A DNA stretch of 35,497 nucleotides. It comes from Cellulophaga sp. BC115SP. Its GTDB lineage: Bacteria > Bacteroidota > Bacteroidia > Cytophagales > Spirosomataceae. Location: positions 1 to 35,497 of the forward strand of contig NZ_JAAALB010000054.1 in the NCBI RefSeq assembly GCF_009905545.1, written 5' to 3'. The notes below the pieces were generated by a model. That model worked only from the letters and a program-made list of their open reading frames with translations. It searched no databases and was not told the DNA's origin. Below are positions 320 through 32,980 of the stretch, one piece after another; position 1 is the stretch's first letter; each line of letters begins with the position of its first letter. Both the position numbers and the translations under genes were made by a program.

Positions 320-1300
320 CTACATCCCATATTTTCTAGCCATTTCCTGAATGTGTTCAATCATTTTTTCTCGTAAATGAAGCGGTTCGAGAATTTCAAG
401 ATCTTTGCCAAATTCGAGTAGCTTCGCAAAAAGCTCGTTATTAAATCGTAGTTGATAAGTGAATACTACGTGTGTTTCGCTAGTTTCTTCGGATACTTCT
501 TGCTGACTATGGTGTAATGGCTTGGTCCTGATATAGTTGGCTCTTGGGAGATCCACCTTGATTTTGACAGTTTCTAATGCTGCATAAGTCTCTGTTTCTG
601 CATCGTAGAGATAGGTAAAACCAATAATGTCATTGAGAAAAGCTAGGTCATTAGGTTTTTGTTGTCTAAAAGGTAAAGCTGATTTTTCAATGGCAAGTAT
701 TCTATCTAAGGCTAAATTATAGATTTTCCCTTTTTTGTGTTCATAACCATACACATGCCAACGGTTATGATATTCTTTTAGCATATAAGGACTTATGCTG
801 TATTCTGTTTTGGATTTAGAAAAATCGTGAAAGTGAATCTTAAGTGTTTTCTTATCTTTGATGGCATTATAAATTTCTTGTAACCTCTTTAAGCCCGCAT
901 ATTCGTCATTTTGTTCAAATTGGACAAATGATTCTTTTGATTGAGAAGATACTCTTTCGTTTAACTTGATTCGTACTTCTTCTAGTCCTTTGAACTGTGG
1001 GAATGCAGCAAATTGTTCAAACAAACTATTGAGTTCTATTGCTAGCTGAAAATCATCGATATTAAATAATTTGTACAACGAGAATTCCTTGGTATAGAAG
1101 TATATGCCTTTTTCACGTTTAATTGGTGCGTCGAACACCTCCTTCATCTTTTCTATATCATTGAAAACTGTTTTTTTTGTTACTCCTTGGTTTTTAGTAA
1201 TATAGGCTTTTTCTATATCTGTCCATCTTACGGGAATACCACGACTAAGAAGGTCATGTAAAATTTCAAATCTTTTGAATTGTTTTTGATTTACTGCCAT
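320..1300 (-). CDS. WYL-domain transcriptional regulator
   Basis: A 326-residue cytoplasmic regulator. Residues 1-75 form a winged helix-turn-helix (VTKKTVFNDIEKM is the recognition-helix region). Residues about 145-210 form the WYL domain, with NRWHVYGY at 179-186; the eponymous Trp-Tyr-Leu reads Trp-His-Val here. The C-terminus (TKPLHHSQ, then LEPLHLREKM) matches the second WYL protein of the window at 19749-20765 closely, so the two are paralogues. The gene diverges from a cupin gene, with a perfect 9-bp inverted repeat between them that is a likely autoregulatory operator. WYL regulators commonly control defence or DNA-damage genes and sense a ligand, often nucleic acid; the ligand here is unknown. 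The ATG at 1298-1300 is the natural start. Confidence 0.9.
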   Translation of the reverse strand: MAVNQKQFKRFEILHDLLSRGIPVRWTDIEKAYITKNQGVTKKTVFNDIEKMKEVFDAPIKREKGIYFYTKEFSLYKLFNIDDFQLAIELNSLFEQFAAFPQFKGLEEVRIKLNERVSSQSKESFVQFEQNDEYAGLKRLQEIYNAIKDKKTLKIHFHDFSKSKTEYSISPYMLKEYHNRWHVYGYEHKKGKIYNLALDRILAIEKSALPFRQQKPNDLAFLNDIIGFTYLYDAETETYAALETVKIKVDLPRANYIRTKPLHHSQQEVSEETSETHVVFTYQLRFNNELFAKLLEFGKDLEILEPLHLREKMIEHIQEMARKYGM

Positions 1301-1311
1301 AGTTTATAAAT

Positions 1312-1334
1312 TTAGTGTAATTACTTTACACTAA
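1312..1334. promoter_or_regulatory. Inverted-repeat operator between WYL gene and cupin gene
   Basis: TTAGTGTAA (1312-1320) and its exact complement TTACACTAA (1326-1334) are separated by 5 nt. The site is 11 nt upstream of the WYL start codon and just upstream of the -7 box of the divergent gene, so a bound dimer could block both promoters. Assigning it to the WYL protein is inference from position. Confidence 0.6.
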
Positions 1335-1341
1335 TATACGC

Positions 1342-1349
1342 CAACTTTG
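1342..1349 (+). promoter_or_regulatory. Candidate -7 promoter box for cupin operon
   Basis: CAACTTTG resembles the Bacteroidota -7 consensus TAnnTTTG with one mismatch. No clear -33 TTTG is seen; the region where it should lie is occupied by the inverted-repeat operator. Confidence 0.4.
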
Positions 1350-1370
1350 CATTCGAAACAAGTCGAAAAC

Positions 1371-1419
1371 CTTAAACTTTTATACGACCTTCAATACTCC
1401 AATTCACACGCCTTCTTTC
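1371..1419 (+). promoter_or_regulatory. ATG-less translation-start block, twin of 20867-20916
   Basis: CTTAA (1371-1375), then ACTTTTAT, then ACGACCTTCAATA (1384-1396). The same block precedes the helicase gene at 20867-20890. The genes at 2339, 22398 and 23758 have CTTAA, then 11-13 nt, then ATGACGAC. Here the ATG is missing and the spacing is 6-8 nt shorter. The frame of the cupin gene is open from 1321 and reads TTFNTPIHTPSF from 1384, which looks like genuine N-terminal coding sequence. Confidence 0.55.
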
Positions 1420-1449
1420 GCTGCCAAAGCAGCATCTATTCATTACGGT

Positions 1450-2253
1450 TTGCCAAGCGATGCACATTCTTTTAGGAATGATACGGTTTTGTTGTTTGAG
1501 CCTAATGCTTCAAATGAAGTAGGGGTATGTCTGCGTCAGGCATTGAGTACGGGTAGTTTGTTGGTGCTCGAAAATTGTGTTGCGGACTTGTTGCTTCGTG
1601 ATGTCAATGGCTCGATGATTAGCCAGATTATTGCTTGTTTGGGTAGTCCTGAGTTGCGTGGGCAATTATTTAGTTTGTTTATGATGGATGAAACTTCGGC
1701 ACTTCGTACCGTGAATGCCTCGTATCATCATGACAATGGGTTTGAAAAATGGGTATTGATTAACCATCCAGATTTCAAATTGCGTTTGCATGTTTATGAG
1801 GCTTCTAGTTTGATTCCGCAAGAAAATCGCCATAATCACGCTTGGGATTTTGCTTCGTATATCATAGAGGGTTGTTTGGAAAATACGTTCTATGAGTTGG
1901 ATGATTTGAGTGGTGAGGAGCTACTAATGCACTATCAATATAGTCCAGTGCAGGGTGGGGCGTATCATACAGAGTTGTTGAATCCAAGTCAGCGTTTACG
2001 TCGCTCGGCCAATCTTACCTTGTCTGGTGGACGAGCCTATTTTTTGCCTGCTACTGTGATTCACCGTATCAATAGTGAGCATACGTTTAAGCAACGTACC
2101 TCTACACTGATGCTTACGGGTAAGCGACGCACTTATCACTGTGATTTGTTTGCCGAAAAGGAGTTTGTTCACACCGAAACACCTACTAGGAGAATGTCGC
2201 TCGACCATCTACACCATCGAATCGAGACACTTTCCTATGGTCTGACAGCATAG
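1450..2253 (+). CDS. Cupin-fold protein, putative metal-dependent enzyme
   Basis: At least 267 residues. The C-terminal half carries both cupin motifs. Motif 1 is NRHNHAWDFASYIIEG (about 126-141), with His128 and His130 as likely metal ligands. Motif 2 is GRAYFLPATVIHRIN (about 194-208), with His205. The N-terminal half is not recognised. Cysteine-dioxygenase-like or other cupin oxygenase activity is possible, but the substrate is unknown. The stated start is a TTG. The same frame is open 129 nt further upstream with no ATG, and shared leader similarity suggests the ancestral protein began 22-23 codons earlier, near 1381-1384. It is the first gene of a short plus-strand operon with the GreA-like gene, divergent from a WYL regulator. 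If the start codon really was lost, this may be a weakly translated or dead gene. Confidence 0.75.
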   Translation: MPSDAHSFRNDTVLLFEPNASNEVGVCLRQALSTGSLLVLENCVADLLLRDVNGSMISQIIACLGSPELRGQLFSLFMMDETSALRTVNASYHHDNGFEKWVLINHPDFKLRLHVYEASSLIPQENRHNHAWDFASYIIEGCLENTFYELDDLSGEELLMHYQYSPVQGGAYHTELLNPSQRLRRSANLTLSGGRAYFLPATVIHRINSEHTFKQRTSTLMLTGKRRTYHCDLFAEKEFVHTETPTRRMSLDHLHHRIETLSYGLTA

Positions 2254-2261
2254 TAGTAATG

Positions 2262-2289: not shown

Positions 2290-2338
2290 CTTTAATTCAA
2301 ATTTTTATTTTTTATAAATCAACTTAATCGATACCATC

Positions 2339-2827
2339 ATGACGACAATGACACAAAAAACATATATTACTGTTCAAGGTAAAATTACATTGGAAGAACG
2401 CCTTATTTCTCTTGAAAAAGAATTAAAAGAAATTCAAGAGGAAAAAGCAGTGGCATATCATGCCTCAGGCGATGGCTGGCATGATAATCCTGGGTGGATT
2501 CAGATTGGACAAATAGAGGAGCGTTTGAGCAAGGAAATCATTTTGATGCGTCAAAAACTAGCTCAATCCGTAGTGATTGCTTCGGAACAACGTAGTTCTG
2601 ACCGTGTGCAAATTGGGTCAATTGTTCGTATTTGTCAGTATCATGGAGCACAGGTGCGAGAAATGGTTTTTGAGATTGTAGGAAGTGGCGAAACGAATAT
2701 TGCTCAAAAGCGATTGGCTTATGATACACCTTTGGGTGCTGCGCTTATCAATCAAGAGAGAGGAACTTCCACTACTTTTGAAGCTCCGGCAGGATTGGTG
2801 CGGATTGACATTTTGGATATAACCTAG
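2339..2827 (+). CDS. GreA/GreB-family transcription elongation factor-like protein
   Basis: 162 residues, close to the roughly 158 of GreA. Residues 15-80 form the antiparallel coiled coil that in GreA enters the RNA polymerase secondary channel. The tip reads GDGWHDNPGW (44-53), where GreA has GDLSENAEY; acidic residues are retained at the tip, though altered. Residues about 88-160 match the FKBP-like C-terminal domain (VQIGSIVRI, FEIVGSGETN, PLGAALINQ). It would rescue or modulate stalled RNA polymerase. As an accessory-replicon copy beside a WYL regulator it is more likely a specialised Gre-like factor than the housekeeping GreA. It begins ATGACGACAATGAC, sharing the ATGACGAC start block with two genes of the second WYL module. 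Confidence 0.85.
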   Translation: MTTMTQKTYITVQGKITLEERLISLEKELKEIQEEKAVAYHASGDGWHDNPGWIQIGQIEERLSKEIILMRQKLAQSVVIASEQRSSDRVQIGSIVRICQYHGAQVREMVFEIVGSGETNIAQKRLAYDTPLGAALINQERGTSTTFEAPAGLVRIDILDIT

Positions 2828-3004
2828 TGAATAGGATATTTTACCTACTTCAGGCAATAAGCTTTATCCCACAAGCTAAACGTTTAAATTTCTCATTTAA
2901 AAAATTCCTGCTTCATGTATGTAGCTTATCGCCTAGATAGTAGCTTAATTAAGTAATCGTATTTGACATGATAACCTAGGTGATTATTAGGTATTTTTAT
3001 GAAT

Positions 3005-3048
3005 AAAAAAAGGCATTACTTAAGGTTCGATTTGAATTTGATTGCCTT
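3005..3048 (-). terminator. Possible terminator of the mannan operon
   Basis: On the minus strand AAGGCA (3043-3048) and TGCCTT (3010-3015) could pair across a 27-nt loop, followed by a run of T. It is four bases beyond the last gene of the operon. The long loop makes this a moderate call. Confidence 0.4.
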
Positions 3049-3051
3049 CAG

Positions 3052-4236
3052 TTACTTTTTGCTTAATTTAAGCATACTGATTCGTGCATATAGCTCAGCA
3101 ATGCAAGCCTCATCTAGTAACCATTTCGGTTTTTCCAATTCTTTTGCATCAGGTGTCCAGCTATGTGTTATCAAACCATATTTATCTCTGGAGTTTTCCC
3201 AAGCATAATCAAGGCTTTTTATGACGGCTTTAATATAAGTCTCGTTGCCATCAATATGATATAACCTCTCATATCCACGATACAGTACAGTTACAAACCA
3301 AGGAAGGTCGATATGTAATTGCAGAGTAGGTTTTTTGTTTTGTGCGGTAAAATGTTTGAATGTACCAGCTGCTACTGCTTGTGCTTCTTTTAAATAGCTG
3401 ATATCGTGTGTAAACTCATATAACATTACTGCTGCTTCAAGCATCGTTCCAGAGTTGTATGTCCACTGCGTATAGTTAATCGAGCCATCTGGCTTTTTAT
3501 CATTCCAGTAAACACCCGTAGAGTCTCTTAAGTTATCGTGCATCCAAGTATAAAATCGCTTACCCCAATTCAGATAAAAAGGGTCGTTGGTTGCTTTATA
3601 CAAGTGCAATGCTGATAAAGTAGCCATTCCATTACTACACGCTGGTTTTTGGTCGTTGTGTCCCTCCAACCATGTCACGCCGCCTCCAATATTATCACTC
3701 CATCCACTTAATATAAATGTGAAGGTTTCTTTTGCCTTTTTTAAATAGGCAGGTCTTTTGGTACTGATATAAGCTTCTGCATAGTCGATAGCTACCAATC
3801 CGTTGTCATCGTAATATCTATCCGATTTGTCCAACATTACAGGATAAGCCTGATAGCCCCCTGGTTTGCGTATGGTATCCTTGTAGGTTTCGTAGCCCAA
3901 AGAAAGACTATCTAAATAAACTAAATATTTATTTTTCACAGCAGGAACCTTTATGAGTACATTCGTTGCTGAAAACATCCCAGAGAATGGCCATAGAAAA
4001 CTAACTTCTTTTTCATTGACACTCCCACCTTGTAAATAGGTTAGCGAATCTTGTTTTCCAGATGGAAAATTTTCTGAAAATAACTTATATTTATCGACCC
4101 TATACCGCTTCCAGATGTTACTATACATTTCTTCTGCTCTTTTGAGATATTGTTTGGATGAAACCATTTCTTGTGATTTCCCAGTTTGAGTCACACCCAG
4201 TAACAACATTAGCGTAATTGAAATTAGAGCTTTCAT
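3052..4236 (-). CDS. GH76 alpha-1,6-mannanase, exported
   Basis: 394 residues with an N-terminal signal peptide (hydrophobic 4-16, then KSQE). It has the (alpha/alpha)6 barrel pattern of GH76, with the conserved paired aspartates in RYYDDNGLVAID (Asp143-Asp144) and WNDKKPDG/YTQWTYNSGTML further on. GH76 enzymes hydrolyse alpha-1,6-mannan backbones by a retaining mechanism. It is the last gene of the minus-strand locus, 24 bp after the GH92 gene. It lacks a lipobox, unlike the other GH76 of this locus (6645-7880), so the two may act in different compartments: periplasm here, outer surface there. Confidence 0.85.
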   Translation of the reverse strand: MKALISITLMLLLGVTQTGKSQEMVSSKQYLKRAEEMYSNIWKRYRVDKYKLFSENFPSGKQDSLTYLQGGSVNEKEVSFLWPFSGMFSATNVLIKVPAVKNKYLVYLDSLSLGYETYKDTIRKPGGYQAYPVMLDKSDRYYDDNGLVAIDYAEAYISTKRPAYLKKAKETFTFILSGWSDNIGGGVTWLEGHNDQKPACSNGMATLSALHLYKATNDPFYLNWGKRFYTWMHDNLRDSTGVYWNDKKPDGSINYTQWTYNSGTMLEAAVMLYEFTHDISYLKEAQAVAAGTFKHFTAQNKKPTLQLHIDLPWFVTVLYRGYERLYHIDGNETYIKAVIKSLDYAWENSRDKYGLITHSWTPDAKELEKPKWLLDEACIAELYARISMLKLSKK

Positions 4237-4260
4237 TTTATGTTTTATTTGTGTTGAAAA

Positions 4261-6603: not shown

Positions 6604-6644
6604 AATAATATTTTTTAATCCTTGTTGTTAATATTCCTGTCGTG

Positions 6645-7880
6645 TTATTTGTATTTTGACATGAGTGCTTGCACACGTTGCATCCACGCTTGGTCAACCC
6701 CTTCAAACTCTGGTGAGCGATTGCCACCACCAAAGCTTGCAAAAAAGTGATAACCATTGTTTGATGTATTTCTACAGGCAATATTTAGTCCATCAATGTT
6801 TTGTTGTGCATAGGTGAGCCAAGCTGGGTTTTTATCAGCTTCATAAAGTTTGATCATGGCTTGCGAACCCCAACCACACCAAGCAGGATTTACACGACTT
6901 TGAGCAGGGTCTGTCAAAAATATGTATGCCTTGGCAGCAGGATTCCATAGTGTAAGGTTCATTGCCCTGCCCAATGCTTGTGCTTTTTCCAAATAATTAC
7001 TATTTCCAAGTATTTTACTGTAAAGTAGGTAGGCTTCGACCATAATTGCATTGTCATAGGTAAATTTCTCAGTATGTAAGACAGATGCGTTGGGGCCATC
7101 ATACATCCAATTGAATAGACCACTCTGTGAATCATACATTTTTGACGTGAGCCATGTATCTACTTGTAAAGCCCAATTTTTATATACCACTTCTCCTGTA
7201 AGCTCATACAACCGCAAGAAAAGTTGTAAACATAAACCATTTGATTGAGTTGGCTTTTGTGTTTTTTGAGTACTCCACCAAAAGCCTCCTTCAGCTACAT
7301 TATCCCATAGCCCGCTTTTTATTAACCAGTCACCACAGGCCTTAGCTCTATTCAAATACGCCTGTTTGGTTGCACCAGAACTAACATCATAGGCACTCAA
7401 GTACACCATGCCAGTAAGAGCATTATCGTCTATGTATTTATCACCACCTGCTCCAGTACCATCTAGGTTACATGCGGCGAAATACCCCCCGTTACCGTTG
7501 TTGGAACGATCCCACATATTATCCATCCATGAAAATGTTTTATTCATGTACGTAAAATAAGTAGAATCTCCAGCGGCAATCATAGCAGCATCGGCGTATA
7601 TCTGACTGGTCACATACCATTCATATACGATGTTGGACTTGGAAGTAGTATTAGCTCTGTAGCTGCCATATTGGGTAAGTAAATTACTGGTAATGAAACC
7701 GTGAGTTTCTCTGGCTAGTTTCTGGTAATCTGCTTTTTTGACCGTTGTATCAATGGGTATGACTGGGAGCACAGTTTCCGAGTCGATATTTTTCTTTGAA
7801 CAAGAAAAAAAGCAAAGGAACATCAAAACTAATGGTTTTATTACCAACAGTTGTGATAAGTTATAGGGTTGTAATTTCAT
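6645..7880 (-). CDS. GH76 alpha-1,6-mannanase, lipoprotein
   Basis: 411 residues from the ATG at 7878-7880. This start gives a short hydrophobic segment ending in a lipobox (FFSC, Cys27), so the enzyme is probably anchored to the outer membrane. An ATG eight codons upstream would add residues inside the end of the SusE-like gene. The paired catalytic aspartates are in DKYIDDNAL (Asp151-Asp152), and GGFWWSTQKTQK and YDNAIMVEAYLLY fit the GH76 barrel. It overlaps the SusE-like stop by 20 bp, which suggests translational coupling. As a surface endo-mannanase it would release oligosaccharides for SusC/SusD import. Confidence 0.88.
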   Translation of the reverse strand: MKLQPYNLSQLLVIKPLVLMFLCFFSCSKKNIDSETVLPVIPIDTTVKKADYQKLARETHGFITSNLLTQYGSYRANTTSKSNIVYEWYVTSQIYADAAMIAAGDSTYFTYMNKTFSWMDNMWDRSNNGNGGYFAACNLDGTGAGGDKYIDDNALTGMVYLSAYDVSSGATKQAYLNRAKACGDWLIKSGLWDNVAEGGFWWSTQKTQKPTQSNGLCLQLFLRLYELTGEVVYKNWALQVDTWLTSKMYDSQSGLFNWMYDGPNASVLHTEKFTYDNAIMVEAYLLYSKILGNSNYLEKAQALGRAMNLTLWNPAAKAYIFLTDPAQSRVNPAWCGWGSQAMIKLYEADKNPAWLTYAQQNIDGLNIACRNTSNNGYHFFASFGGGNRSPEFEGVDQAWMQRVQALMSKYK

Positions 7881-8988
7881 GAGAGTACGGTCCTTGAGCT
7901 CCAAAAATCAAAGAGGCTTTTATGTTGCCATTGTCGGCACTAGGATTAAATTTATAGGTGTTGTCCCACTGATTATCGCTAACAGGATATATATAAAAGT
8001 AAGATGCTGGCTGTCCCACAGGGCTACCATTGTTTGCGTTGGCGCTTCCAACATACTGGTCTCCTGCCGATGTATGTAAAACAAATTTGTAGCGTTCGTC
8101 ACGCCCCCAAGAAAACTGGTAAAATACCACAGGAATCGACGTTGATTGCCATTTACCCGCACCTACATAAGAAAGCTTGCCAATCTCTGCATTGTAGGCC
8201 GACATATACAACCCTACTTCTTTTATTTCAGTAGCCTCTAAAACGGCTGCAACATTAAAGTCATATCTTATGCGATATACCTTACTAGCACCTGAAACAG
8301 TGGTATTATTTGTTCCTTCTTTGACAGAAGAACCATCTATATAAAATTTGCGTCCTGTAGTATTTTGCTTGTCAGTGAGCTGATAAGTCCCTTCTTTTAA
8401 CGAAGTGTATATTTCAAAAACTCCGTCTTCAACTTTTTTCATTGGCACAGCTTTGGCAATATCAGCTCCAGCCTCTGTAGCCGTGCCGGTAATATAAAGT
8501 GCTGATGGTATTTCTGCAAAACCAGCTGGTCTTTGAATTTGAATGGTACGAACTGTGGTGCTTACTTTCAAATTCAGCGATTTTGAGGCAATTACCGTCC
8601 ATTTCAATTTGCCTGTCGAAGATGAGTTTATCCCTCCTGCAGCAGCTATTTTCACCAATTGCTTATGTGTGACGGTTGCTTGTCGTTGTGTACCGCCTCC
8701 GTCAGAAAGGATTTTGAAGACAGGCTTTGAAAAATCGCCTCCCTCTTTATCAAATGCGAGTTCATAAAGTACTAAGCCACCATCTTCAGCAATGGCTTCA
8801 TCCCATTTAAATACTTCGCTTGCCGTGGTGATAGGACGCAAATTGATATTTACATTATCATCAGGCAAATTGAGTTTTGTTACTCCGCTAAAATTTATAT
8901 TCAATTCCCTTTCAATATTTTGACAGGAAAGGAATATTACAGTAGATAGCAGTGAAAAAAAAGCTTTTATCATAGTTGACTTTTTCAT
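7861..8988 (-). CDS. SusE/SusF-like outer-membrane carbohydrate-binding lipoprotein
   Basis: 375 residues. An N-terminal signal with lipobox (FLSC, Cys22) is followed by a SusE-type immunoglobulin-like domain (FKWDEAIAEDGG, YELAFDKEG, around 60-150). One or two beta-rich domains with aromatic surface residues follow (about 160-370; YKFVLHTSAGDQYVG and PASYFYIYPVSDNQWDNTYKFNPS are typical of SusE/F). It likely binds mannan chains at the cell surface. It lies between susD and the GH76 lipoprotein gene. The sequence is family-like rather than a clear orthologue of starch SusE, as usual for these proteins. Confidence 0.82.
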   Translation of the reverse strand: MKKSTMIKAFFSLLSTVIFLSCQNIERELNINFSGVTKLNLPDDNVNINLRPITTASEVFKWDEAIAEDGGLVLYELAFDKEGGDFSKPVFKILSDGGGTQRQATVTHKQLVKIAAAGGINSSSTGKLKWTVIASKSLNLKVSTTVRTIQIQRPAGFAEIPSALYITGTATEAGADIAKAVPMKKVEDGVFEIYTSLKEGTYQLTDKQNTTGRKFYIDGSSVKEGTNNTTVSGASKVYRIRYDFNVAAVLEATEIKEVGLYMSAYNAEIGKLSYVGAGKWQSTSIPVVFYQFSWGRDERYKFVLHTSAGDQYVGSANANNGSPVGQPASYFYIYPVSDNQWDNTYKFNPSADNGNIKASLIFGAQGPYSHEITTL

Positions 8989-9105
8989 CTGTATAAAATA
9001 AGTTAAATTTTGATAATCAATGATTTACAAAAAAGATAAAATACCCAAAAACATCTATTAACATTTTGAATGTACATCTATCAGTTTTTGGATATTTCAT
9101 AACAA

Positions 9106-10737
9106 TTAATATCCTGGATTTTGAGTCAGATTTTTATTCAAAGAAAGCTCTGATGCAGGAATAGGCCACAAATAATGTTTACTAGCATCAAACTGACGGC
9201 GCTGAGCTCTGATATAGCCTCTATCGATGGTTGGGTCGCTAAATTTTGCCCCGTGTGCATAGCCATTCAGTACTACCTCAGCTATTTTCCATCTTCTAAT
9301 GTCGTCGGTACGTAGGCCTTCCATAGCCAGTTCTACACGTCTTTCATCTCTGATGATATTTGTCATATCGCCAGTACCCGGATAGTTCAAAGCAGCTGGG
9401 TCAGTGAAACCTGCTCTCATACGCAAAGCCTTTATGGTTTTGTCCCAAACGCTTGCATCCATCTGTCCCAAACTATTTTTTGCTTCGGCATAGGTAAGCA
9501 ATACTTCTGCATATCTGATTAGATGTAGGTTTGAACCCGAAGCAAATGACGCTAAAGCGGTGGGGTCAAAGTATTTTCTCCAGTAATACCCTGTTGCTGA
9601 TCCTTGTCCACTAGTAGAATATTCGTCAGCACCTGGCTGTACGGGATCGGTACCAGGTTTTATGTAGATTTTCTTGGTACTACCGTTGGGATTCACCCAG
9701 TTATAACCGTCGTAGACAATAGTGGCTGTCAAACGAGGGTCACGATTGATGTATGGATCGTTCTCGTTATAACCAGACGCAGGATCGGTAATCTTTTTGC
9801 CATTCAACATACGGTACGAATCTACCAACTCCTGTGTGGCTCCTAAATTGTTCGTTCTGGCTCCTACTGACCTTGGTGCAAAATCGAAAAATTCACCCCA
9901 AGTTCTTACAGCAGGTACATATTGTAATGCAAGAATAGTCTCATTATTAACCTTATTTGCAGCAGGGTCGTTAAACAAGGCACTATAGCTTTCATGCAAT
10001 GAATATTTGCCATAAGTGGCTTGGTTATTCATTAGTTTTTCACAAATAGAAGCCACTTCAGCCATTTTATTACCTTGGTATAACAAGACACGTGCTTGTA
10101 AAGCAAGTGCAGCAGCTTTGGTAATTCTACCATTCTCACTGGCTGGTATTGCATCTTTTGAAGGAAGGTCGGCGATAGCAGCTTCCAATTCAGAAACCAC
10201 AAAATTAACAACCTCTGCTTTGGGCTTTCTTGCAACAACCTGAGCTTCCTCTATTGTAAGGTCACGATCAAGTAGAGGAACATCGCCATACCATTTTGTT
10301 AGGTTAAAATGTGCAAATGCACGAAGAAAACGTGTTTCAGCTTTGAGGCGGGCAATGGTTGCTGCAGGTAGTGTTGTATTTTTATCTACATTTTCCAAAA
10401 ACAGATTACATGACTTGATAAGCTTATAATAATTACCCCAGTCGTTACGGAAACGTGGAAGAGTTGCAGTAAAGCTACCGCTGGTTATGGCATCGGCATT
10501 TCCACTTGAATTTCCTTGTGGCGAATAGGCGTTGTCGGAAGTAGCATCAAGGTAAAAATAGGAATTGCTATCGTACATCAAGCTGTAATTATTGTACAAA
10601 GCATTGTTAACATTCTGGTCTATTTTCCAAAATGTCAATTCTGAAAACCTATCAGTTGGAGCAAGGTCAAGTTGTTTGCAAGCACTTAGGTTCAAACATA
10701 CTGCAGCAATCGCTATGCTTATTTTTGAGAATTTCAT
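9106..10737 (-). CDS. SusD-like glycan-binding lipoprotein (RagB/SusD family)
   Basis: 543 residues from the ATG at 10735-10737, which gives a proper lipoprotein signal (MKFSKISIAIAAVCLNLSAC, ending at Cys20) followed by KQLDLAPTDRF. The TPR-rich RagB/SusD body follows (FLRAFAHFNLTKWYGDVPLL), and the C-terminal signature YLWPIPASELSLNKNLTQNPGY is typical. It caps the SusC pore and binds oligosaccharide. It follows susC by 22 bp. A longer reading that starts inside susC is rejected because it would bury the lipobox. Confidence 0.95.
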   Translation of the reverse strand: MKFSKISIAIAAVCLNLSACKQLDLAPTDRFSELTFWKIDQNVNNALYNNYSLMYDSNSYFYLDATSDNAYSPQGNSSGNADAITSGSFTATLPRFRNDWGNYYKLIKSCNLFLENVDKNTTLPAATIARLKAETRFLRAFAHFNLTKWYGDVPLLDRDLTIEEAQVVARKPKAEVVNFVVSELEAAIADLPSKDAIPASENGRITKAAALALQARVLLYQGNKMAEVASICEKLMNNQATYGKYSLHESYSALFNDPAANKVNNETILALQYVPAVRTWGEFFDFAPRSVGARTNNLGATQELVDSYRMLNGKKITDPASGYNENDPYINRDPRLTATIVYDGYNWVNPNGSTKKIYIKPGTDPVQPGADEYSTSGQGSATGYYWRKYFDPTALASFASGSNLHLIRYAEVLLTYAEAKNSLGQMDASVWDKTIKALRMRAGFTDPAALNYPGTGDMTNIIRDERRVELAMEGLRTDDIRRWKIAEVVLNGYAHGAKFSDPTIDRGYIRAQRRQFDASKHYLWPIPASELSLNKNLTQNPGY

Positions 10738-19748: not shown

Positions 19749-20765
19749 TCAAGACTCTTTGTATCGACTAAGCATTTTTGAGGCAATACTTCTAATGGAT
19801 TTTCGGAGATGTAAGGGTTCAATGACTTCTAGGTCTGCACCGTATTCGAGTATTTTGGTGGTGAGTTCTGGATTGACTATTACTTGTAAACTAAACTCGT
19901 ATTGATCGTCAGAAATCTCTATATGCCTTTGGCTTTTGTGTAAAGGTTTGGTAATAAGATACTGTGCTCTGACTTTACTATGCGAACGTAATACCACGTT
20001 TTCAATGGTTTTTCCCTCAAGAACTGTTACTCCTACAACTGGTTCAAAGTGTTGCTTGATATTAAAATTTGAAGAATACTTAAATTGATGACTCGTCTTT
20101 TTGAAAGACTTGATTCTATCCAAAGCAATTTTGGATAAATAATCTACCCCTTCTTCCCATGCAATCAGATACCAACGATTGTTGTATTCTTTGAGCATGA
20201 GGGGATAAACCACCAAGTTTTTCAGGGATTCATGATAAGGTTTGTATTCCATCGTTAGATAATCGCCGCTTCTGATATGTTGTAACAGAGGTAACAAATG
20301 TTCACGCCCTTGTAAGTCAACTTCCTCAAAATCAATATATTCATTGGGTTCATTGCTGATGAGCGAGGAACGTTGCTCTAATTTGAGTAGAACGTCTTCA
20401 AGACCAATAAAATCTTCGGGATGATTATTAAAGAAGCGACGAACAACGGCGACTATTTCGATGATTCCGCTCGTGACTTTACCGTCCAGCTTTTCTAAGA
20501 GGGAATAGGTGTCTTGAGTTTCATAATAATACCCTTTGTGCTTATTGGCTTTTGGGGGTAATGGGGCATCGAGTTGATTTCTGAGAAATTTCAAATCATC
20601 TCTTAAGGTTTTTTCGTCTATGCTAATCTCATCAATGCTATATAAATACTCAAGTAGTTGTTCGCCTGAAAGACCAGACCTTTCATTGGTATTACGAAGT
20701 ATTCGGTGTAAACAAATGACTCTTTTGAGCTTTTCGTAGGAAGTTGATTTTTTGTTTTCACTCAT
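19749..20765 (-). CDS. WYL-domain transcriptional regulator, second copy
   Basis: 338 residues. The N-terminal winged helix-turn-helix spans 1-90 (SIDEKTLRDDLKFLRNQL as recognition helix). The WYL domain is about 165-225 with the canonical motif NRWYLIAW (Trp198-Tyr199-Leu200), followed by LSKIALDRI. The C-terminal extension (ITKPLHKSQ, EYGADLEVIEPLHLRKSI) parallels the first WYL protein at 320-1300. It diverges from the helicase gene, as the first copy diverges from the cupin gene. The intergenic region lacks the TTAGTGTAA inverted repeat found at the first copy, so operator specificity probably differs. It is likely the switch for the helicase-membrane-vWA operon. Confidence 0.92.
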   Translation of the reverse strand: MSENKKSTSYEKLKRVICLHRILRNTNERSGLSGEQLLEYLYSIDEISIDEKTLRDDLKFLRNQLDAPLPPKANKHKGYYYETQDTYSLLEKLDGKVTSGIIEIVAVVRRFFNNHPEDFIGLEDVLLKLEQRSSLISNEPNEYIDFEEVDLQGREHLLPLLQHIRSGDYLTMEYKPYHESLKNLVVYPLMLKEYNNRWYLIAWEEGVDYLSKIALDRIKSFKKTSHQFKYSSNFNIKQHFEPVVGVTVLEGKTIENVVLRSHSKVRAQYLITKPLHKSQRHIEISDDQYEFSLQVIVNPELTTKILEYGADLEVIEPLHLRKSIRSIASKMLSRYKES

Positions 20766-20828: not shown

Positions 20829-20836
20829 TAGCTTTG
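20829..20836 (+). promoter_or_regulatory. -7 promoter box of helicase operon
   Basis: TAGCTTTG, an exact TAnnTTTG, about 42 nt upstream of the shared ACGACCTTCAATA block. The -33 element is not clear. Confidence 0.5.
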
Positions 20837-20866
20837 TACCATCAAATCGGGAATAGTCCCACAGTA

Positions 20867-20916
20867 TTTAATCTTTTACGACCTTCAATAACACAATTTC
20901 ACACTTCCTTCCTTTT
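20867..20916 (+). promoter_or_regulatory. ATG-less translation-start block, twin of 1371-1419
   Basis: TTTAA, then TCTTTT, then ACGACCTTCAATA (20878-20890) and a further similar stretch (ACACAATTTCACAC). No ATG occurs in any frame between the WYL gene and the helicase TTG at 20944. The helicase frame is open from 20872 and reads TTFNNTISHFLPFSPTTEQ from 20878, which is typical helicase N-terminal sequence just before the Walker A region. Confidence 0.55.
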
Positions 20917-20943
20917 TCTCCAACTACTGAGCAATCTTTTGCG

Positions 20944-22236
20944 TTGGAAACTGTTAGTTCATTCTTGAAAAGTGGCGATAAAGCCCTGATTCTGAAGGGT
21001 GCAGCAGGTACTGGCAAGACGTCTATTCTAAAGGCTGTCGTAGATTATTTGAAAAATCAGCAAAAACAAGTAGAGCTTTGGGCTCCTACAGGCTGTGCGG
21101 CGATGAATTTATCTGAAAAGACAGATTATCAGGCTGGTACGATTCATTCGGGTATTTACAAACCAGAAACGGATGAAGAGCGTGCTTGTGTGAAACTGCT
21201 TCGTAAGGTGAATCAAGTGGAAGGTGAGGTAATTTATATCATTGATGAGAGCTCGATGATTAGTAATAGGGTAGAAAAATCTCCCGATTTTGAGTCTGAA
21301 ACACCTATGCTCTCGGACCTGATTGCTTATGTTCGTAGTGGACATTCGGATAGTAAAATCATTTTTGTGGGAGATGAATTTCAATTACCTCCTATCAAAT
21401 ATGATAGATATGACACGGCTCCTGCCTTGGATATGGATTTTCTGAGAAGTGAGTTTGGCTTACGCTGTTCGGAGGTATCACTATCGAAGGTGATGCGTCA
21501 GGCCGAGGGTTCTTATATATTGGAAGTTGCTACTGAAATTCGTGATAGTATTCGTACTGGTGGTAGATTTTTGGAGAGTATTGGTAAACCAATGTACAAA
21601 GAAGAAACGGTTACGAATTTATACCTAGAGCGCTTTGATGAAAGAAATCCTAGAGCTGCTGTGATTCTTAGTTTTACAAACGACTATGCTCGCAGGTGTA
21701 ATTATTTGGTTCGTCAAAAACTTGGTTTGACTGGTACTATAGCACCTGGTGATATGGTTGTGCCGAGCCGTAATTTTTATGGTTATCACAACACGTATAT
21801 ACCTAGTGGTGAGGTTTTACAGGTGGAACATGTAGGCAAAATTAATAAAGTTGCTGAAATGGAATTTATGCGCGTTGGTCTGAAAAGATTTAGTCGTGGA
21901 CAAGAGGCTGAGATAGTGGACGTGACTATTTCTTTGGATTATCTTCAAGACCCTAAAAGTATTACTATCGAAAAAAGGAAAGCATTGTTTGCTGCTGCCA
22001 ACAAGAACAACCCCATTTACAGAAAGACAAAGGATAGTCGTGATGACGAATATTTGTCTGCTATGCAGCTGGGTTATGCGCATGCGATGACTTGTCATAA
22101 AGCACAAGGTAGCGAGTGGAATACCGTATTTTTTAATACTTGGATGCCTAAAAATCCTGACCTGAGATTTTTGTACACAGGTGTTACCCGTGCTCGCAAG
22201 GAGTTGTTTACCAATAATTCTCATAGGTACGCTTAA
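20944..22236 (+). CDS. RecD/Pif1-like superfamily 1 DNA helicase
   Basis: At least 430 residues. Numbered from the TTG: Walker A GAAGTGKTS (19-27), APTGCAAMNL (48-57), TIHSGIY (66-72), Walker B IYIIDESS (97-104), GDEFQLPPI (143-151), VMRQ (motif IV region), and a C-terminal UvrD_C_2-type end with MTCHKAQGSEW and YTGVTRARKEL. All motifs for ATP-driven 5'-3' unwinding are present, so the enzyme looks intact. The coding frame continues 22-24 codons upstream without an ATG, and the true start is uncertain (see the start block at 20867). It is first in an operon with a membrane coiled-coil protein and an exported vWA-like protein, opposite a WYL regulator. It is shorter than RecD2. Confidence 0.88.
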   Translation: METVSSFLKSGDKALILKGAAGTGKTSILKAVVDYLKNQQKQVELWAPTGCAAMNLSEKTDYQAGTIHSGIYKPETDEERACVKLLRKVNQVEGEVIYIIDESSMISNRVEKSPDFESETPMLSDLIAYVRSGHSDSKIIFVGDEFQLPPIKYDRYDTAPALDMDFLRSEFGLRCSEVSLSKVMRQAEGSYILEVATEIRDSIRTGGRFLESIGKPMYKEETVTNLYLERFDERNPRAAVILSFTNDYARRCNYLVRQKLGLTGTIAPGDMVVPSRNFYGYHNTYIPSGEVLQVEHVGKINKVAEMEFMRVGLKRFSRGQEAEIVDVTISLDYLQDPKSITIEKRKALFAAANKNNPIYRKTKDSRDDEYLSAMQLGYAHAMTCHKAQGSEWNTVFFNTWMPKNPDLRFLYTGVTRARKELFTNNSHRYA

Positions 22237-22397: not shown

Positions 22398-23657
22398 ATG
22401 ACGACTAACAATACTTTCGCCCCAAACACAACAGAAGAGGTTTTACCAACAGCAGAAATGACTGTAGAACAGGTGTTATCTACCTCATTGCCTACTCATG
22501 TGCCTGTAATTAAGGTCAACTTAAATGAGTATGGTATCGAGCAGTCTATGCACCATAAGGGTAATCCGAATGCTTTGCATAATACTTTGCTTGAAATCAG
22601 AAGTGGGCATATCATTGATGAAAATTCTGACGAGGTTCAGCAGGAAAAACATCGGAGAGAGCTTGATGAGAAGATTGCGGTATTAGAAAAGGAAATCGTG
22701 ACACTGAGTACGGAAGGACAACACCTCAATGCAGTGTCTATTCCTAGTCTTGAGAAGTCTATCGACGAGCTCGAAGAGGAGATTCATGAGTGGAAACTGG
22801 AGCGTCATCAGAGCAAGAAGCCTACTGCACGGAATCAGTTTACACTTTGGCGTGCAGCCATTTTTAGTGCAATTGGTTTTGTGTACATAATGGCATTTTA
22901 TATAAGTGCGGTGTATATGGGTATGACACGAGATATAAACGCAACCTTGCAGGAAATCCAGCAAAAAGGCGAAGGCTTAGGAGGTGTATTCAATGCTATT
23001 TTCTCGAAGGATGCTTTTACTACGTTTAATTTCCATTGGTTTGCTCCTATTCCTCTGTTGATGTTTGCAATGGTGATTGAAAAACTTTATACAGAATATC
23101 AAGGCAAAAAGAGATGGTTGTTTGTAGGGATTGCTGGTATATCGACGCTGGTTTTAGATGGTATTATTGCTTATAAAATTGAGGCAACCAACCAAAAACT
23201 ACAGTTTATGATAGGGCAAAATAGTACAGATTTAGCATGGTACGCTAGCCCCGACTTTTGGGCGGTATTGATGATGGGTTTTGTTTCTACGATTGTTTGG
23301 GGAATTGTGGTCGCTACTTTGTTGGAAGAACTTAACAAGTCGAATTATGAGCAAGTCGTCAAACTTGAAATCGAAAAACGTAAAGAAAAAATTACAAGTA
23401 TTCGAGAAAAAATAGATGGCTTGAAAAAGGAGTTTGGTGAGATTATGTCCAAAGTAAACCAATTGAAAATCGATATTGCGCGACTTTCGGAACGTAAGCA
23501 GAACATGAAGGTAAGTCTCTCTGAATTGGATAATTATGCTTCAAGGTTTTATGATGGTTGGATAAAGCTGGTAGGAACCCTGCCTAACAAACAGGATTTG
23601 CTTGGACTTTGTGAAGAAAGATATCAAGACTTTAGAAGTCGTTATCTTTCAGAATAG
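22398..23657 (+). CDS. Membrane protein with four helices and flanking coiled coils
   Basis: 419 residues, function not recognised. A polar N-terminus (1-80) precedes a coiled coil (about 82-138), four membrane helices (about 152-172, 213-230, 240-258, 287-308) and a second long coiled coil (about 318-380) with a short tail. Both coiled coils should be on the same side of the inner membrane, given the even number of helices. Such an architecture suits an oligomerising sensor or effector, but this is inference. It begins ATGACGAC, 13 nt after CTTAA, and is the second gene of the WYL-helicase operon. Confidence 0.85.
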   Translation: MTTNNTFAPNTTEEVLPTAEMTVEQVLSTSLPTHVPVIKVNLNEYGIEQSMHHKGNPNALHNTLLEIRSGHIIDENSDEVQQEKHRRELDEKIAVLEKEIVTLSTEGQHLNAVSIPSLEKSIDELEEEIHEWKLERHQSKKPTARNQFTLWRAAIFSAIGFVYIMAFYISAVYMGMTRDINATLQEIQQKGEGLGGVFNAIFSKDAFTTFNFHWFAPIPLLMFAMVIEKLYTEYQGKKRWLFVGIAGISTLVLDGIIAYKIEATNQKLQFMIGQNSTDLAWYASPDFWAVLMMGFVSTIVWGIVVATLLEELNKSNYEQVVKLEIEKRKEKITSIREKIDGLKKEFGEIMSKVNQLKIDIARLSERKQNMKVSLSELDNYASRFYDGWIKLVGTLPNKQDLLGLCEERYQDFRSRYLSE

Positions 23658-23757: not shown

Positions 23758-24600
23758 ATGACGACATTTTTTTACTTCCGCAATATCCTTTTCAGTTTGT
23801 TATTGACTTTGTGCGCTACCGTTTGGGCTTCGGCTCAAAAAAAAGAAGCTCATCATTATTTGGTGGTTCTTGATTTGTCGGATCGTCTTTTAGCAAGCGA
23901 TCAGATCAATCGAGATAAGGCAATTATTGAAGCCATTTTTGGAATTTTTGAGCAACAGGTTCGTAAAAATATGATGATTTATTCTAATGACTCTTTCAAA
24001 GTGAGCCTTGTCCCACAAGAAGGAGGCGTTGACGAACATACCTATACGTCGGGCTTGTATATCAATATGCAAAAGCTATCCTTACCAGATAGACGCACTC
24101 GATTGGATCAATTTCGTAAAGAGCTTCCTCAGCGCTTGCAACAGCTATACAAGGCAGCTACCACTGGAAAAACCCTATCGCAACATTTTCGAGGTGCTGA
24201 TATTTGGCGTTATTTCAATGACAACTTGGCTCAGGATACTCGACAAAACTGTCAGAATTACTTATACATCTTGACAGATGGTTATTTTGATTTTGAGTCA
24301 AATCGATTTGTAGGTCAGCAAGGCAATCGCCGAACAGATTCTCAAATGATTACACGACTTCGTAAAAGTAGCAACTGGCGTACCCAACTGGCACAATCCA
24401 GCGAAGGACTGATTCCTATCAAGAAAAGCTTCCCTCCTATTGTGGTACAAGTATTTGAAATCCAACCGAAAAGTAAAGTACTTGACGAGCAGGATCTTTT
24501 GATAGCATTATGGAAAAAATGGTTGAGTGAGACTAAGTTATCTCTTCGACAGATTCAACCTAGGGGAAATATAGATAAAATCACCGAACTACTAGAGTGA
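23758..24600 (+). CDS. Exported von Willebrand factor A-like protein
   Basis: 280 residues. A signal peptide (hydrophobic 7-24, then ASAQ/KK) is followed by a vWA-like fold: VVLDLSDR (36-43) as the first strand with the MIDAS-like D-x-S, and YILTDGYFDF (170-179) as the strand carrying the second acidic ligand. The third MIDAS position is unclear, so metal binding is uncertain. Probably periplasmic. It is the last gene of the operon, 100 bp after the membrane protein and 24 bp before a strong terminator. It begins ATGACGAC, 12 nt after CTTAA. Its partner may be the periplasmic loops of the membrane protein. Confidence 0.8.
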   Translation: MTTFFYFRNILFSLLLTLCATVWASAQKKEAHHYLVVLDLSDRLLASDQINRDKAIIEAIFGIFEQQVRKNMMIYSNDSFKVSLVPQEGGVDEHTYTSGLYINMQKLSLPDRRTRLDQFRKELPQRLQQLYKAATTGKTLSQHFRGADIWRYFNDNLAQDTRQNCQNYLYILTDGYFDFESNRFVGQQGNRRTDSQMITRLRKSSNWRTQLAQSSEGLIPIKKSFPPIVVQVFEIQPKSKVLDEQDLLIALWKKWLSETKLSLRQIQPRGNIDKITELLE

Positions 24601-24823: not shown

Positions 24824-27793
24824 GTCAGAGCAGTACTTCCAGAAAAACAAGGATTAAGACAAAATTCAGCCTCATTTGGAAACAATTCAGTTCCACAAAG
24901 TCAGAGCAGTACTTCCAGAAAAACAAGGATTAAGACCCGATAAAAGTCAGTAAACAGTTTTGTAACTGTTCACCGTCAGAGCAGTACTTCCAGAAAAACA
25001 AGGATTAAGACTCTTTTAAGATATGGTACATATCATCAGCGATACGACAAAGTCAGAGCAGTACTTCCAGAAAAACAAGGATTAAGACTGTAATAAATAC
25101 ATTAAAATTGTGCCATTTTTCTTCAATCAGTCAGAGCAGTACTTCCAGAAAAACAAGGATTAAGACACAACTTATTGAAATCTAATCCAATAGTTGTATT
25201 ACGTCAGAGCAGTACTTCCAGAAAAACAAGGATTAAGACTGCATAACAAAGCGGTCGAACGTCGTACCGAAGCGTGTCAGAGCAGTACTTCCAGAAAAAC
25301 AAGGATTAAGACTTCAAACCGTCAATCAAGGTTTTTACCTTTTCTTGAATAGGTCAGAGCAGTACTTCCAGAAAAACAAGGATTAAGACGTTCCTGTAAT
25401 ATCGGGATAATTTTGAATCCCGTTGTGTCAGAGCAGTACTTCCAGAAAAACAAGGATTAAGACACGTTTTGGAACGTAAACAAAGTAATAAAACTAACAA
25501 GAAGTCAGAGCAGTACTTCCAGAAAAACAAGGATTAAGACTTCTTTATTCTCAGTGAATTTATGCACATATCGAGAATGTCAGAGCAGTACTTCCAGAAA
25601 AACAAGGATTAAGACCATTGACTTGATTAGTGAAACATAGTTCTGCACCCGGTCAGAGCAGTACTTCCAGAAAAACAAGGATTAAGACTATTATAATACC
25701 ATGTATCCGAAATAAACTTTCTGTAAGTCAGAGCAGTACTTCCAGAAAAACAAGGATTAAGACTCGTTTTTTTCGTTGACAGTTTTTTTAATCAGACGTC
25801 AGAGCAGTACTTCCAGAAAAACAAGGATTAAGACAATCACGGTAAAAGTAATAAGTTGTGTTATGAGTAATTAGTCAGAATGGTACTTCCACAAAAACAA
25901 GGATTAAGACATACAGATGAACGTATCCTCATTCTATTTATTTTAGAAAAGTCAGAATGGTACTTCCACAAAAACAAGGATTAAGACTCAAACATAATAT
26001 CTATATGGTTACAAACAACCAAAAAGTCAGAATGGTACTTCCACAAAAACAAGGATTAAGACCAGGCTTCCTTTGTTTTTACTTTCAGATAATAAAGTTG
26101 TCAGAATGGTACTTCCACAAAAACAAGGATTAAGACGGTAAAGCTAAATTGTCTTCCATACTCATTACTTGGTCAGAATGGTACTTCCACAAAAACAAGG
26201 ATTAAGACATATTAAAAATTTATATCCTGTGATTCTATTAAGTCAGAATGGTACTTCCACAAAAACAAGGATTAAGACTCTTACAAACATTTAAACTTTT
26301 AGCTCCTATTTGACAGTGTCAGAATGGTACTTCCACAAAAACAAGGATTAAGACCAAGTTTAAAAAATCTTTTTCGTGTTCATGGTAATTCACATGTCAG
26401 AATGGTACTTCCACAAAAACAAGGATTAAGACTCAATAAAAATTTGGTTTTCGTTAATAGTTTCAAAATCAATGTCAGAATGGTACTTCCACAAAAACAA
26501 GGATTAAGACACTGAAATAAATCCTTTATCCTTGCAAAATGTTTGTCAGAATGGTACTTCCACAAAAACAAGGATTAAGACGAATTTCAGGATGTTCTGA
26601 GTTATATAATTCTGAATATGTCAGAATGGTACTTCCACAAAAACAAGGATTAAGACTTCCTGTTCTTGAATAGATTTATATAAAGCTGTAAATACGTCAG
26701 AATGGTACTTCCACAAAAACAAGGATTAAGACATAAATTTGATGATTTAATTAAAATAGATGATTCATTTAGTCAGAATGGTACTTCCACAAAAACAAGG
26801 ATTAAGACACATTTGCTACCAACTCACTAATTTCTTCAAAACTGTCGTCAGAATGGTACTTCCACAAAAACAAGGATTAAGACGACATCTTGAGATGCTT
26901 TTTTAGAGAAATAGACATTTTGTCAGAATGGTACTTCCACAAAAACAAGGATTAAGACCTGATTTTCAAACCCATTTTTTCGGCATATTCAGTCAGAATG
27001 GTACTTCCACAAAAACAAGGATTAAGACTCACCTTGTCGGGTGTCAATAAGGTAAATTGTATTATAATGTCAGAATGGTACTTCCACAAAAACAAGGATT
27101 AAGACCTTTCAATGATTGGGCAACACTTTTCAGCTATTTTAATTAAGTCAGAATGGTACTTCCACAAAAACAAGGATTAAGACTGAGAATGCAAGCAAAA
27201 TACCAGCAATTGCGCATAAAAATGTCAGAATGGTACTTCCACAAAAACAAGGATTAAGACTTGTTAGTGTCAATATCATTATGAAAGTAGGCTTGTGCTA
27301 AGGTCAGAATGGTACTTCCACAAAAACAAGGATTAAGACTTGTTAGTGTCAATATCATTATGAAAGTAGGCTTGTGCTAAGGTCAGAATGGTACTTCCAC
27401 AAAAACAAGGATTAAGACCTTCTTATTACCCACCTTCTCTGGAGTATCGAACTCCAAGTCAGAATGGTACTTCCACAAAAACAAGGATTAAGACACGGTA
27501 AAATTTCTGGAAAAAACGTTTTTACTAAATGTAAAGTCAGAATGGTACTTCCACAAAAACAAGGATTAAGACTATAGGAAAACTCAGCACTAATGTTTAT
27601 TTGATTGAAGTCAGAATGGTACTTCCACAAAAACAAGGATTAAGACTCTAACTGCTTTAGCAACACTAACAAAATTTTTTTCTTTGGTCAGAATGGTACT
27701 TCCACAAAAACAAGGATTAAGACATGATTGCCCATGTATAGAAACTGATAATTGATTTGTCAGAATGGTACTTCCACAAAACAAGGATTAAGA
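24824..27793 (+). CRISPR. CRISPR array, 40 repeats and 39 spacers, two repeat variants
   Basis: The repeats are 37 nt and the spacers 33-42 nt. Repeats 1-14 (24824-25834) start GTCAGAGCAGTACTTCCAG; repeats 15-40 (25874-27793) start GTCAGAATGGTACTTCCAC. Both end AAAAACAAGGATTAAGAC. The variants differ at positions 7, 8, 9 and 19, with no intermediate forms. The last repeat (27759-27793) has lost one A of the A-run and its final C, so it is the trailer end, and transcription from the left is expected. The 3' end ATTAAGAC resembles the 5' handle of type I/III crRNAs, but the type cannot be fixed without cas genes, none of which is in the window. The spacers at 27261-27302 and 27340-27381 are identical. 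Confidence 0.98.
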
Positions 27794-32248: not shown

Positions 32249-32980
32249 CTAAAGTTTATTGGAAGTAAGACGCCCTAGGTTTGCACAACCGAAATCCTCT
32301 TCAGTCAACAAGTTGTTAAAAACATTATCATCTTGCATAGAATAGTAGCATTGTCGATGATAGTCTTTTATCCCAAACTTGGTGTTATCTAACCATTTAC
32401 ACGTTTTTGAGTATTCATAAATCATGTCATCCCAAAACCAATTCTTCTTTTCGATCAAGATCTTATTGATAGTTTTTCCATCAGATTGTATTTGTATGCT
32501 TAAAATCGATTGATCTACACTTTTGGTGAGTAAAACTTGCCCTGTAGATTTCCTATCTCTTGATATTTTTGGGGGATAAACTCTTTCAAATTTGAATTGA
32601 CTTGCCATTATATGGTTGTAGGAATTAATGAAAACTGATTTGTCCCAACCATAAGTTTCTGATAGTTCCAATACAGCAAAATGAAGTAAGTCCAGAATAT
32701 ACTTGTACTTTCCATGCTTTGATAAACTTAGATATTCTTCTTCATTGAATATTTTATCATATATACAAATTGCTCCAAAATATCTTGGTCCAGCCAAACT
32801 AATATTTGGTCCAACATGTAAAGTTATTCTGCTTGTTTTTGGTGGTTTGTAACCATCTAAAGAATTATGATAGAAGTCTGAAATGTAGTTTAACGTCCTT
32901 TGAAACTCCAAATCTTCGGGTGTATTTTTTATTAAAGTACCATGGTAGTATATTGTTATGTCATGAAGAGGTCGTCCCAT
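32249..32980 (-). CDS. Hypothetical protein
   Basis: 243 residues from the ATG at 32978-32980; a GTG nine codons upstream is possible but adds only MIIFKKTPI. No signal peptide and no membrane helix. It is not recognised. Visible features are an N-terminal MGRPLHDITIYYHGTL, a mixed alpha/beta composition and many aromatic residues (FWDDMIYEYSKTCKWLD). The size and setting among small scattered cargo genes would fit an immunity-type or stress protein, but nothing in the sequence proves this. It lies 51 bp from the DUF2695 gene on the same strand. Confidence 0.65.
   Translation of the reverse strand: MGRPLHDITIYYHGTLIKNTPEDLEFQRTLNYISDFYHNSLDGYKPPKTSRITLHVGPNISLAGPRYFGAICIYDKIFNEEEYLSLSKHGKYKYILDLLHFAVLELSETYGWDKSVFINSYNHIMASQFKFERVYPPKISRDRKSTGQVLLTKSVDQSILSIQIQSDGKTINKILIEKKNWFWDDMIYEYSKTCKWLDNTKFGIKDYHRQCYYSMQDDNVFNNLLTEEDFGCANLGRLTSNKL

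Follow-up and report, generated by a model that had tools for sequence, protein, structure and literature searches.

The locus studied here raises the question of how an intact helicase gene can be translated when no start codon stands at its head. The window, a stretch of 35,497 nucleotides from Cellulophaga sp. BC115SP (genome G000), has on its forward strand a helicase open reading frame (20872-22236) that encodes a conserved N-terminus without any preceding ATG, GTG or TTG. The open frame of 454 codons is headed by a block (20867..20890, leader end and first codons) composed of TTTAA (20867-20871), TCTTTT (20872-20877) and ACGACCTTCAATA (20878-20890), with a gap of 6 nt from TTTAA to ACG. 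An in-frame TAA is found at 20869-20871, five codons 5' of a TTC at 20884, and the first ATG, GTG or TTG of the frame is the TTG at 20944. When read from the block, the protein begins with SPTTEQSFALETVSSFL, followed by GAAGTGKT. Pfam matches (AAA_30 with 1.7e-23, AAA_19, UvrD_C_2 and PIF1) identify the predicted protein as a superfamily 1 helicase; in PADLOC it hits PDC-M16A (3.5e-91), a candidate defence family. The block and the intact, ATG-less helicase behind it are as an earlier reading had described them, and sequence, frame translation and Pfam all agree on this point.

The window holds a second gene of this kind. The 19-mer TCTTTTACGACCTTCAATA has two sites at no more than 3 mismatches (1378 and 20872), against 0.02 expected from shuffles, and the block at 1378-1396 heads another ATG-less gene, termed gene 1. 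For gene 1, in-frame comparison of starts puts the proposed UUC start at 1390..1392, and the frame from TTC extends over 1390..2253 (both on the forward strand). Gene 1 has neither a Pfam nor a PADLOC match, and its predicted structure (mean pLDDT 34) was unusable.

Replacement of ATG by TTC was found at 16 gene starts from five families, in six genomes and three genera of freshwater bacteria. The families are the RecD-like helicase (window genome G000, Flectobacillus sp. BAB-3569, here G003, and G004), gene 1 (G000 and G003), cas1 (G003, G004 and G054), CRISPR-associated primase-polymerase type B, or CAPP_B (G003, G004, G054, Runella sp. SP2, here SP2, and G269), and a TPR/TOTE protein (G003, G054 and SP2). 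Neighbours of the helicase in G003 and G004 contributed further ATG-less starts (cas1, CAPP_B with a BT4734-like_N domain, and the TPR/DUF7017/S1-TOTE protein), and six were added from Runella (plasmid pSP2_2 of SP2, and G269, which has the same genus code) and from G054 of a third genus. The CAPP_B adaptation module, defined for the test as cas1, CAPP_B and cas2 with a RecD-like helicase, is present in G003 and also in G004, where cas2 was judged by similarity. The cases were collected by inspecting the module for frames that lack an ATG, and only later was it noticed that TTC is common to them.

All 16 starts are TTC and none is TTT. Inside the same 16 frames phenylalanine is encoded by TTT 272 times and by TTC 45 times, which argues that the codon and not the amino acid is conserved. 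When 13 non-redundant cases were compared in frame (the near-duplicate G003 helicase, G003 gene 1 and G269 CAPP_B being dropped), TTC was the sole invariant codon of the 18 from -10 to +7. The codon before it was ACC in 8 of the 13, ATC in 3, and GCT and ACT in one each; because of the eight ACC codons, ACCTTC could also be a motif of another kind.

Other genes were read for comparison. Apart from one hypothetical gene of SP2 that is annotated with an ATT start, none of them was seen to begin with a non-start codon in place of ATG; SP2 cas6 and cmr1 are annotated with TTG and GTG, respectively. The cas2 gene starts with ATG in all five TTC-bearing modules that were read (G003, G004, G054, SP2 and G269). 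Three comparison genes of the window have an ATG start in both G000 and G003: a GreA/GreB C-terminal-domain protein (2339..2827, Pfam), a predicted coiled-coil/membrane protein (22398..23657) and a 280-aa protein without Pfam match (23758..24600), all on the forward strand. The G003 frames at 1079-9435, type III effector genes by eye, have an ATG near the start except for the piece at 3014-4426. In that stretch (L034, G003:C88, 1827-4426), an effector-like frame appears split into the overlapping frames 1827-3059 and 3014-4426, perhaps by a frameshift. CAPP_B starts are of both types, with 5 TTC and 11 ATG among the 16 inspected, and those outside the window's family (G492, G484, G496, G167 and Persicobacter) have ATG in 5/5 cases. 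On Runella rosea and Aureispira plasmids, cas1 is annotated. In the SP2 record (L229 21519, 25664), a CTG is annotated as the start of CAPP_B and an internal GTG as that of the TPR protein, which looks as if software had failed on the TTC starts; if TTC is the start, automatic annotation mis-starts such proteins.

The TTC codons stand where orthologous proteins have their ATG. For the helicase, the start letters were masked and four ATG-start Runella proteins (SP2, L043, L044 and L046) were included in the alignment. The ATG of SP2 aligned on TTC 20884 of G000 and G003 in three MAFFT settings, the ATGs of L043 and L044 were one codon downstream of the TTC column, and that of L046 was one codon upstream. 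The TTC of the G004 helicase was two columns before the TTC 20884 column in two settings and in the column in the third. We therefore propose TTC at 20884..20886 (forward strand), at the orthologous-ATG place and invariant in the 16 starts, as the UUC start codon of the helicase, with the frame of the RecD/PIF1-like protein running over 20884..22236. The sequence-only reading had placed the start at the ACG and looked for an orthologous ATG at 20875, which is probably wrong, since the homologous start column is TTC 20884 and none of the four Runella helicases puts its ATG at 20875 in the three alignment settings. Deletion of an ATG and a start at ACG were both dropped because the invariant codon is TTC and the orthologue ATGs align there.

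Similar correspondence was seen in other families. In cas1, the TTC codons of G003, G004 and G054 share one column with the ATG codons of G156 and G149, and five other ATGs sit two or three codons further in. In CAPP_B, F and M fall in one column for four of the five TTC rows, the G054 protein being one codon longer. Leaders are seen with either codon (TTTAAACTTTTACGGCT-ATG in SP2, TTTAAACTTTTACGACC-TTC in G003), and so is one identical leader (TTCAACACC-ATG in G040, TTCAACACC-TTC in SP2 CAPP_B); to judge from such pairs, leaders are interchangeable between ATG and TTC. Immediately upstream of the cas1 TTC, a 1-nt indel between G003 and G004 breaks the common frame, so that the sequence 5' of this TTC is not common coding sequence.

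The start regions are well conserved. The helicases of G003 and G004 are 89% and 51% identical to that of the window. Between G000 and G003, positions -30 to +60 around TTC are identical at 86/90 bases for the helicase and 89/90 for gene 1 (28/30 and 30/30, respectively, in the 30 bases before TTC, and 30/30 in both genes in the 30 bases from TTC on), and the remainder of the genes at 1132/1290 and 743/801. For the same 90 bases, the ATG-start controls gave 76/90 (280-aa protein), 78/90 (GreA-like protein) and 88/90 (membrane protein). In view of the last value, conservation of the start region is high but not peculiar to TTC genes.

Changes between ATG and TTC were counted on protein trees that had been built without the first residues. 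The fewest changes required were 3 for CAPP_B, 2 for cas1, 3 for the TPR protein and 1 for the helicase, and those forced by starred branches alone were 2, 1, 2 and 1, respectively. The TPR tree is weak, with long branches and one starred fork, and its sister pair G003 (TTC) and G004 (ATG) differs in the start codon. In the helicase tree, the L046 row was in a wrong frame, which created a false long branch; L046 is correct in the start-column alignment. Leaders within one genome resemble each other, so the 16 cases represent fewer than 16 independent events, and TTC leaders may have spread by recombination.

Several explanations that do without initiation at UUC have to be weighed. It is highly improbable that the genes are switched off, be it as decaying genes or as silent cassettes that are given an ATG by recombination or RNA processing. 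The lack of an ATG near the start in 16 genes and the likeness of leaders within a genome would fit such a scenario, but the frames are open and dN/dS is low (0.122 for the helicase and 0.031 for gene 1, both G000/G003, and 0.097 for CAPP_B, SP2/G269; an ATG-start control had 0.066). With dN/dS at 0.03-0.12, purifying selection acts on all three pairs, which are hence not fresh pseudogenes; neither relaxed selection (three pairs) nor disrupted frames were found. The very recent inactivation considered earlier as one of two options is for the same reasons unlikely: G003 differs from the window in hardly a base of leader and start while the helicase has diverged under selection, and the 51%-identical G004 helicase is likewise ATG-less. 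The other option, continued translation by a non-AUG route, gains support from these comparisons and appears probable. As for silent cassettes, genomes were scanned with a model of the block, and 150 of 2946-4516 candidates were scored in each. The model recovered its ten training sites (E of at most 4.8e-4); beyond these, five genomes of the genus held no site with E better than 0.015 and hence gave no sign of an ATG-bearing twin. Inverted repeats near the starts were imperfect or not common to different genomes (three stretches). Cassette switching was rejected, as the model found no second copy among the candidates scored.

Ordinary start codons upstream offer no general solution, as 14 of the 16 starts have no ATG, GTG or TTG in the stretch from the in-frame stop to TTC. 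The two exceptions are a TTG 9 codons upstream in G003 cas1, which lies 5' of the frame-breaking indel, and a TTG 12 codons upstream in G054 CAPP_B. We consider it improbable that initiation takes place at a near-cognate codon immediately 5' of TTC (for the helicase, ACG 20878), with ACCTTC as conserved context only. ACG does precede TTC in the helicase and gene 1 of both G000 and G003, and ATT, ATC or ATA is found at most three codons before TTC in the G004 helicase, G003 CAPP_B, cas1 of G003, G004 and G054, and CAPP_B and TPR of G054. Where present, however, near-cognates vary in codon and place; G004 CAPP_B and SP2 TPR lack one over the whole distance from the in-frame stop to TTC, the 15 codons before TTC are free of them in SP2 CAPP_B, G269 CAPP_B and G003 TPR, and the orthologous ATGs of helicase, cas1 and CAPP_B align with TTC instead. 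A near-cognate at a constant place is thus absent in two leaders, distant in three and variable in the rest. Quite improbable, too, is a true start at a downstream ATG, GTG or TTG (TTG 20944 in the helicase) that would turn the conserved upstream codons into an untranslated leader. In its favour, a TTG is found at codon 20 in the helicase and gene 1 of both G000 and G003, and Walker A lies downstream of TTG 20944. Yet the first downstream ATG, GTG or TTG ranges from codon 11 to codon 43 over the 16 genes, the ATG orthologues are colinear up to TTC, and use of the first downstream start in G054 cas1 (GTG, codon 29) would remove a conserved N-terminal strand. The earlier suggestion that TTG 20944 might prove a normal, conserved start is borne out by half: ATG-less orthologues exist and G003 shares the TTG at codon 20, but G004 has no TTG until codon 57 and has an ATG at codon 19.

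A chromosome control was made with 270 ORFs of at least 150 codons from 400 kb of G000, for which a coding score was calculated upstream of the first start. Although 35/270 ORFs had their first ATG, GTG or TTG at codon 20 or later, none of the 270 scored at least 0.25 just before the first start in this coarse, homology-free test (highest value 0.20). On the plasmid contigs, gene 1 scored 0.30 (G000) and 0.31 (G003), CAPP_B of G003 0.30 and TPR of G003 0.33. The helicases reached only 0.17 and 0.18 and would be missed by the score alone, and G003 cas1 was not flagged because of its upstream TTG.

The reading that we prefer, with a confidence evenly poised between acceptance and doubt, is that the helicase starts at UUC 20884, in place of the orthologous ATG, and that UUC serves as a rare or conditional, IF3-gated throttle on adaptation genes. 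ATG and TTC would be exchanged within a CRISPR-adaptation gene set (helicase, cas1, CAPP_B, TPR/TOTE protein and gene 1), and initiation at UUC would be rare or bound to certain conditions, so as to throttle translation of spacer-acquisition proteins. The ordinary fMet initiator would most likely be used, at a codon against which IF3 normally discriminates, and output would be very low, rising when IF3 proofreading relaxes. In the experiments described in PMC7907450, no initiation complex formed on an mRNA with UUC start when E. coli components were combined with IF3, whereas 70S complexes without IF3 formed at about the AUG rate, with an amplitude about 30% lower. According to PMC10158994, Watson-Crick pairs are required at codon bases 1 and 2. 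From these results we favour IF3-gated use of UUC. It would also make sense for helicase, cas1, CAPP_B and TPR protein to share one throttle, because Cas1 of the published CAPP_B system interacts with CAPP and the RecD-like helicase, as stated in PMC8211822. Against a UUC start, at which the known translation apparatus would not be expected to initiate, the codon pairs with the CAU anticodon only at the middle base and so lacks the required pairs at bases 1 and 2; against a throttle, a mere throttle leaves the constant choice of TTC unexplained.

This choice would be accounted for by a dedicated route, such as an initiator-like tRNA with GAA anticodon or another factor that admits UUC, which we regard as unlikely. 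TTC in 16/16 starts and TTT in none, against the internal preference for TTT, argues for such a route, and the best explanation of the codon would be an initiator with GAA anticodon. Laboratory initiator tRNAs with altered anticodons shift initiation to other codons, as reported in PMC13232202, so that non-AUG initiation occurs once a matching initiator exists; those are laboratory systems, however, and no matching initiator was found in the genomes analyzed here. All 18 initiator-type tRNAs identified by a D-arm pattern had a CAT anticodon (hits in 12 of 14 genomes; none in G004 and G269, which carry TTC genes), the sole GAA tRNA in the G003 and G000 loci that were read is an ordinary tRNA-Phe, and neither the window nor the plasmid contig of G003 yielded a tRNA. 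A loose anticodon-stem pattern returned only a flood of chance-like matches. With the D-arm pattern, G003 has four initiator-type tRNA-Met genes (L188, L191, L192 and L197) and the window genome two; two of the four in G003 have a GAGG/CCTC anticodon stem and a CTCATAT loop. Pairing of ACGACCTTC with the initiator tRNA, an idea suggested by an E. coli sequence, was rejected, as the tested pattern was absent from five genomes of the genus. Broader in scope, and in our estimate unlikely, is the proposal that UUC is a natural start with a decoding route of its own that acts as a module-wide lock on spacer acquisition, ATG standing for the open and TTC for the locked state. The lock might be opened by some tRNA, factor or condition, for example by loss of IF3 proofreading during infection.

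The start codons generally recognised in bacteria are AUG and the codons that differ from it by one base. The AUU codon of infC is a poor near-cognate start gated by IF3. The proposed UUC starts would resemble it as starts that normal initiation disfavours and that give low or regulated output; AUU is one base from AUG, whereas UUC is two bases away, and in the present set the same codon is found in five gene families and alternates with ATG among orthologues. Chloroplast non-AUG starts are near-cognate codons and are not known to include UUC. A likeness to them would lie in the regulatory role, as evolutionarily kept non-AUG starts of chloroplast genes are proposed as a layer of translational regulation in PMC9845219. 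The type III module with CAPP_B has been described, in PMC8211822, as cas1, CAPP_B, cas2 and a RecD-like helicase that occur almost only in Bacteroidetes. The modules of G003 and G004 differ from it in that several of their genes carry TTC for ATG; the term start codon is absent from the main text of that paper. Among the titles listed from open-licence literature, none reports natural UUC starts; UUC initiation was met there in an in vitro study. If true, UUC at the starts of linked genes, with only the middle base in common with AUG, would represent an unknown mode of initiation, or else a new way of keeping CRISPR spacer acquisition nearly silent, and IF3 gating of UUC starts would become directly testable in living cells.

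Several elements were found in the leaders. The helicase is preceded by TAGCTTTG (20829..20836, forward strand), which ends 47 nt 5' of TTC and which we take to be a -7 box of the Bacteroidetes type. Upstream of gene 1, CAACTTTG (1342..1349, forward strand) is a -7-like box that ends 40 nt 5' of TTC. Overall, 7 of the 8 first genes checked have a promoter-like box (TAnnTTTG, or a single mismatch to it) that ends 24-47 nt 5' of TTC; none was found before G004 cas1. A GTGTAA-TTACAC palindrome precedes gene 1 of G000 (TTAGTGTAA-TTACT-TTACACTAA, 1312..1334, forward strand) and cas1 of G003 and G054, and is partial before G003 gene 1; no copy was detected upstream of the three helicases or of G004 cas1. 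In the window, both TTC genes are divergent from a reverse-strand gene for a WYL/WCX-domain regulator (Pfam; 320..1300 for gene 1, 19749..20765 for the helicase), and the palindrome may be a WYL operator. Folding of the helicase leader predicts a small hairpin, GGGA-ATAG-TCCC (20849..20860, forward strand), which is absent from the other leaders folded. Six leaders, each folded by itself (-0.1 to -5.2 kcal/mol), gave no common RNA fold at the start, and a different fold was obtained for the G004 leader. In G003 cas1 (L035:838-874), an 11-nt perfect inverted repeat extends across the promoter-like box and TTC.

The remainder of the window gives the setting of these genes. The window genome (7.08-Mb assembly) belongs to the same genus as G003 and G001, and the contig is probably a plasmid, as it carries Rep3 and ParA-type genes (Pfam). 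As regards the CAPP_B adaptation module, the window contains a helicase, a WYL gene and an array. No CAPP_B match was obtained anywhere in the G000 assembly, and helicase and gene 1 thus persist there without CAPP_B. The PADLOC candidate PDC-M16 consists of the M16A helicase and the M16B TPR protein; the G004 TPR protein matches M16B with 3.4e-94, and no PDC-M16B-like ORF was recognised by eye in the window. Viral contigs contained eight weak CAPP relatives, and neither a gene 1 relative nor a match to the block pattern. The helicase is followed by the coiled-coil/membrane protein, the 280-aa protein and a CRISPR array (24824..27723, forward strand) in which two 37-nt repeat variants make up 39 exact copies, followed by a degenerate one. 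The two variants are arranged in consecutive blocks (GTCAGAGCAGTACTTCCAG.. first, GTCAGAATGGTACTTCCAC.. second), and the 39 exact repeats enclose 38 spacers. No convincing spacer target was found in the DNA compared here; one spacer matches 20/21 bases at 32836-32856 of the window, which is near chance. Another minor feature of the array is a spacer that occurs twice in succession (about 27260-27380).
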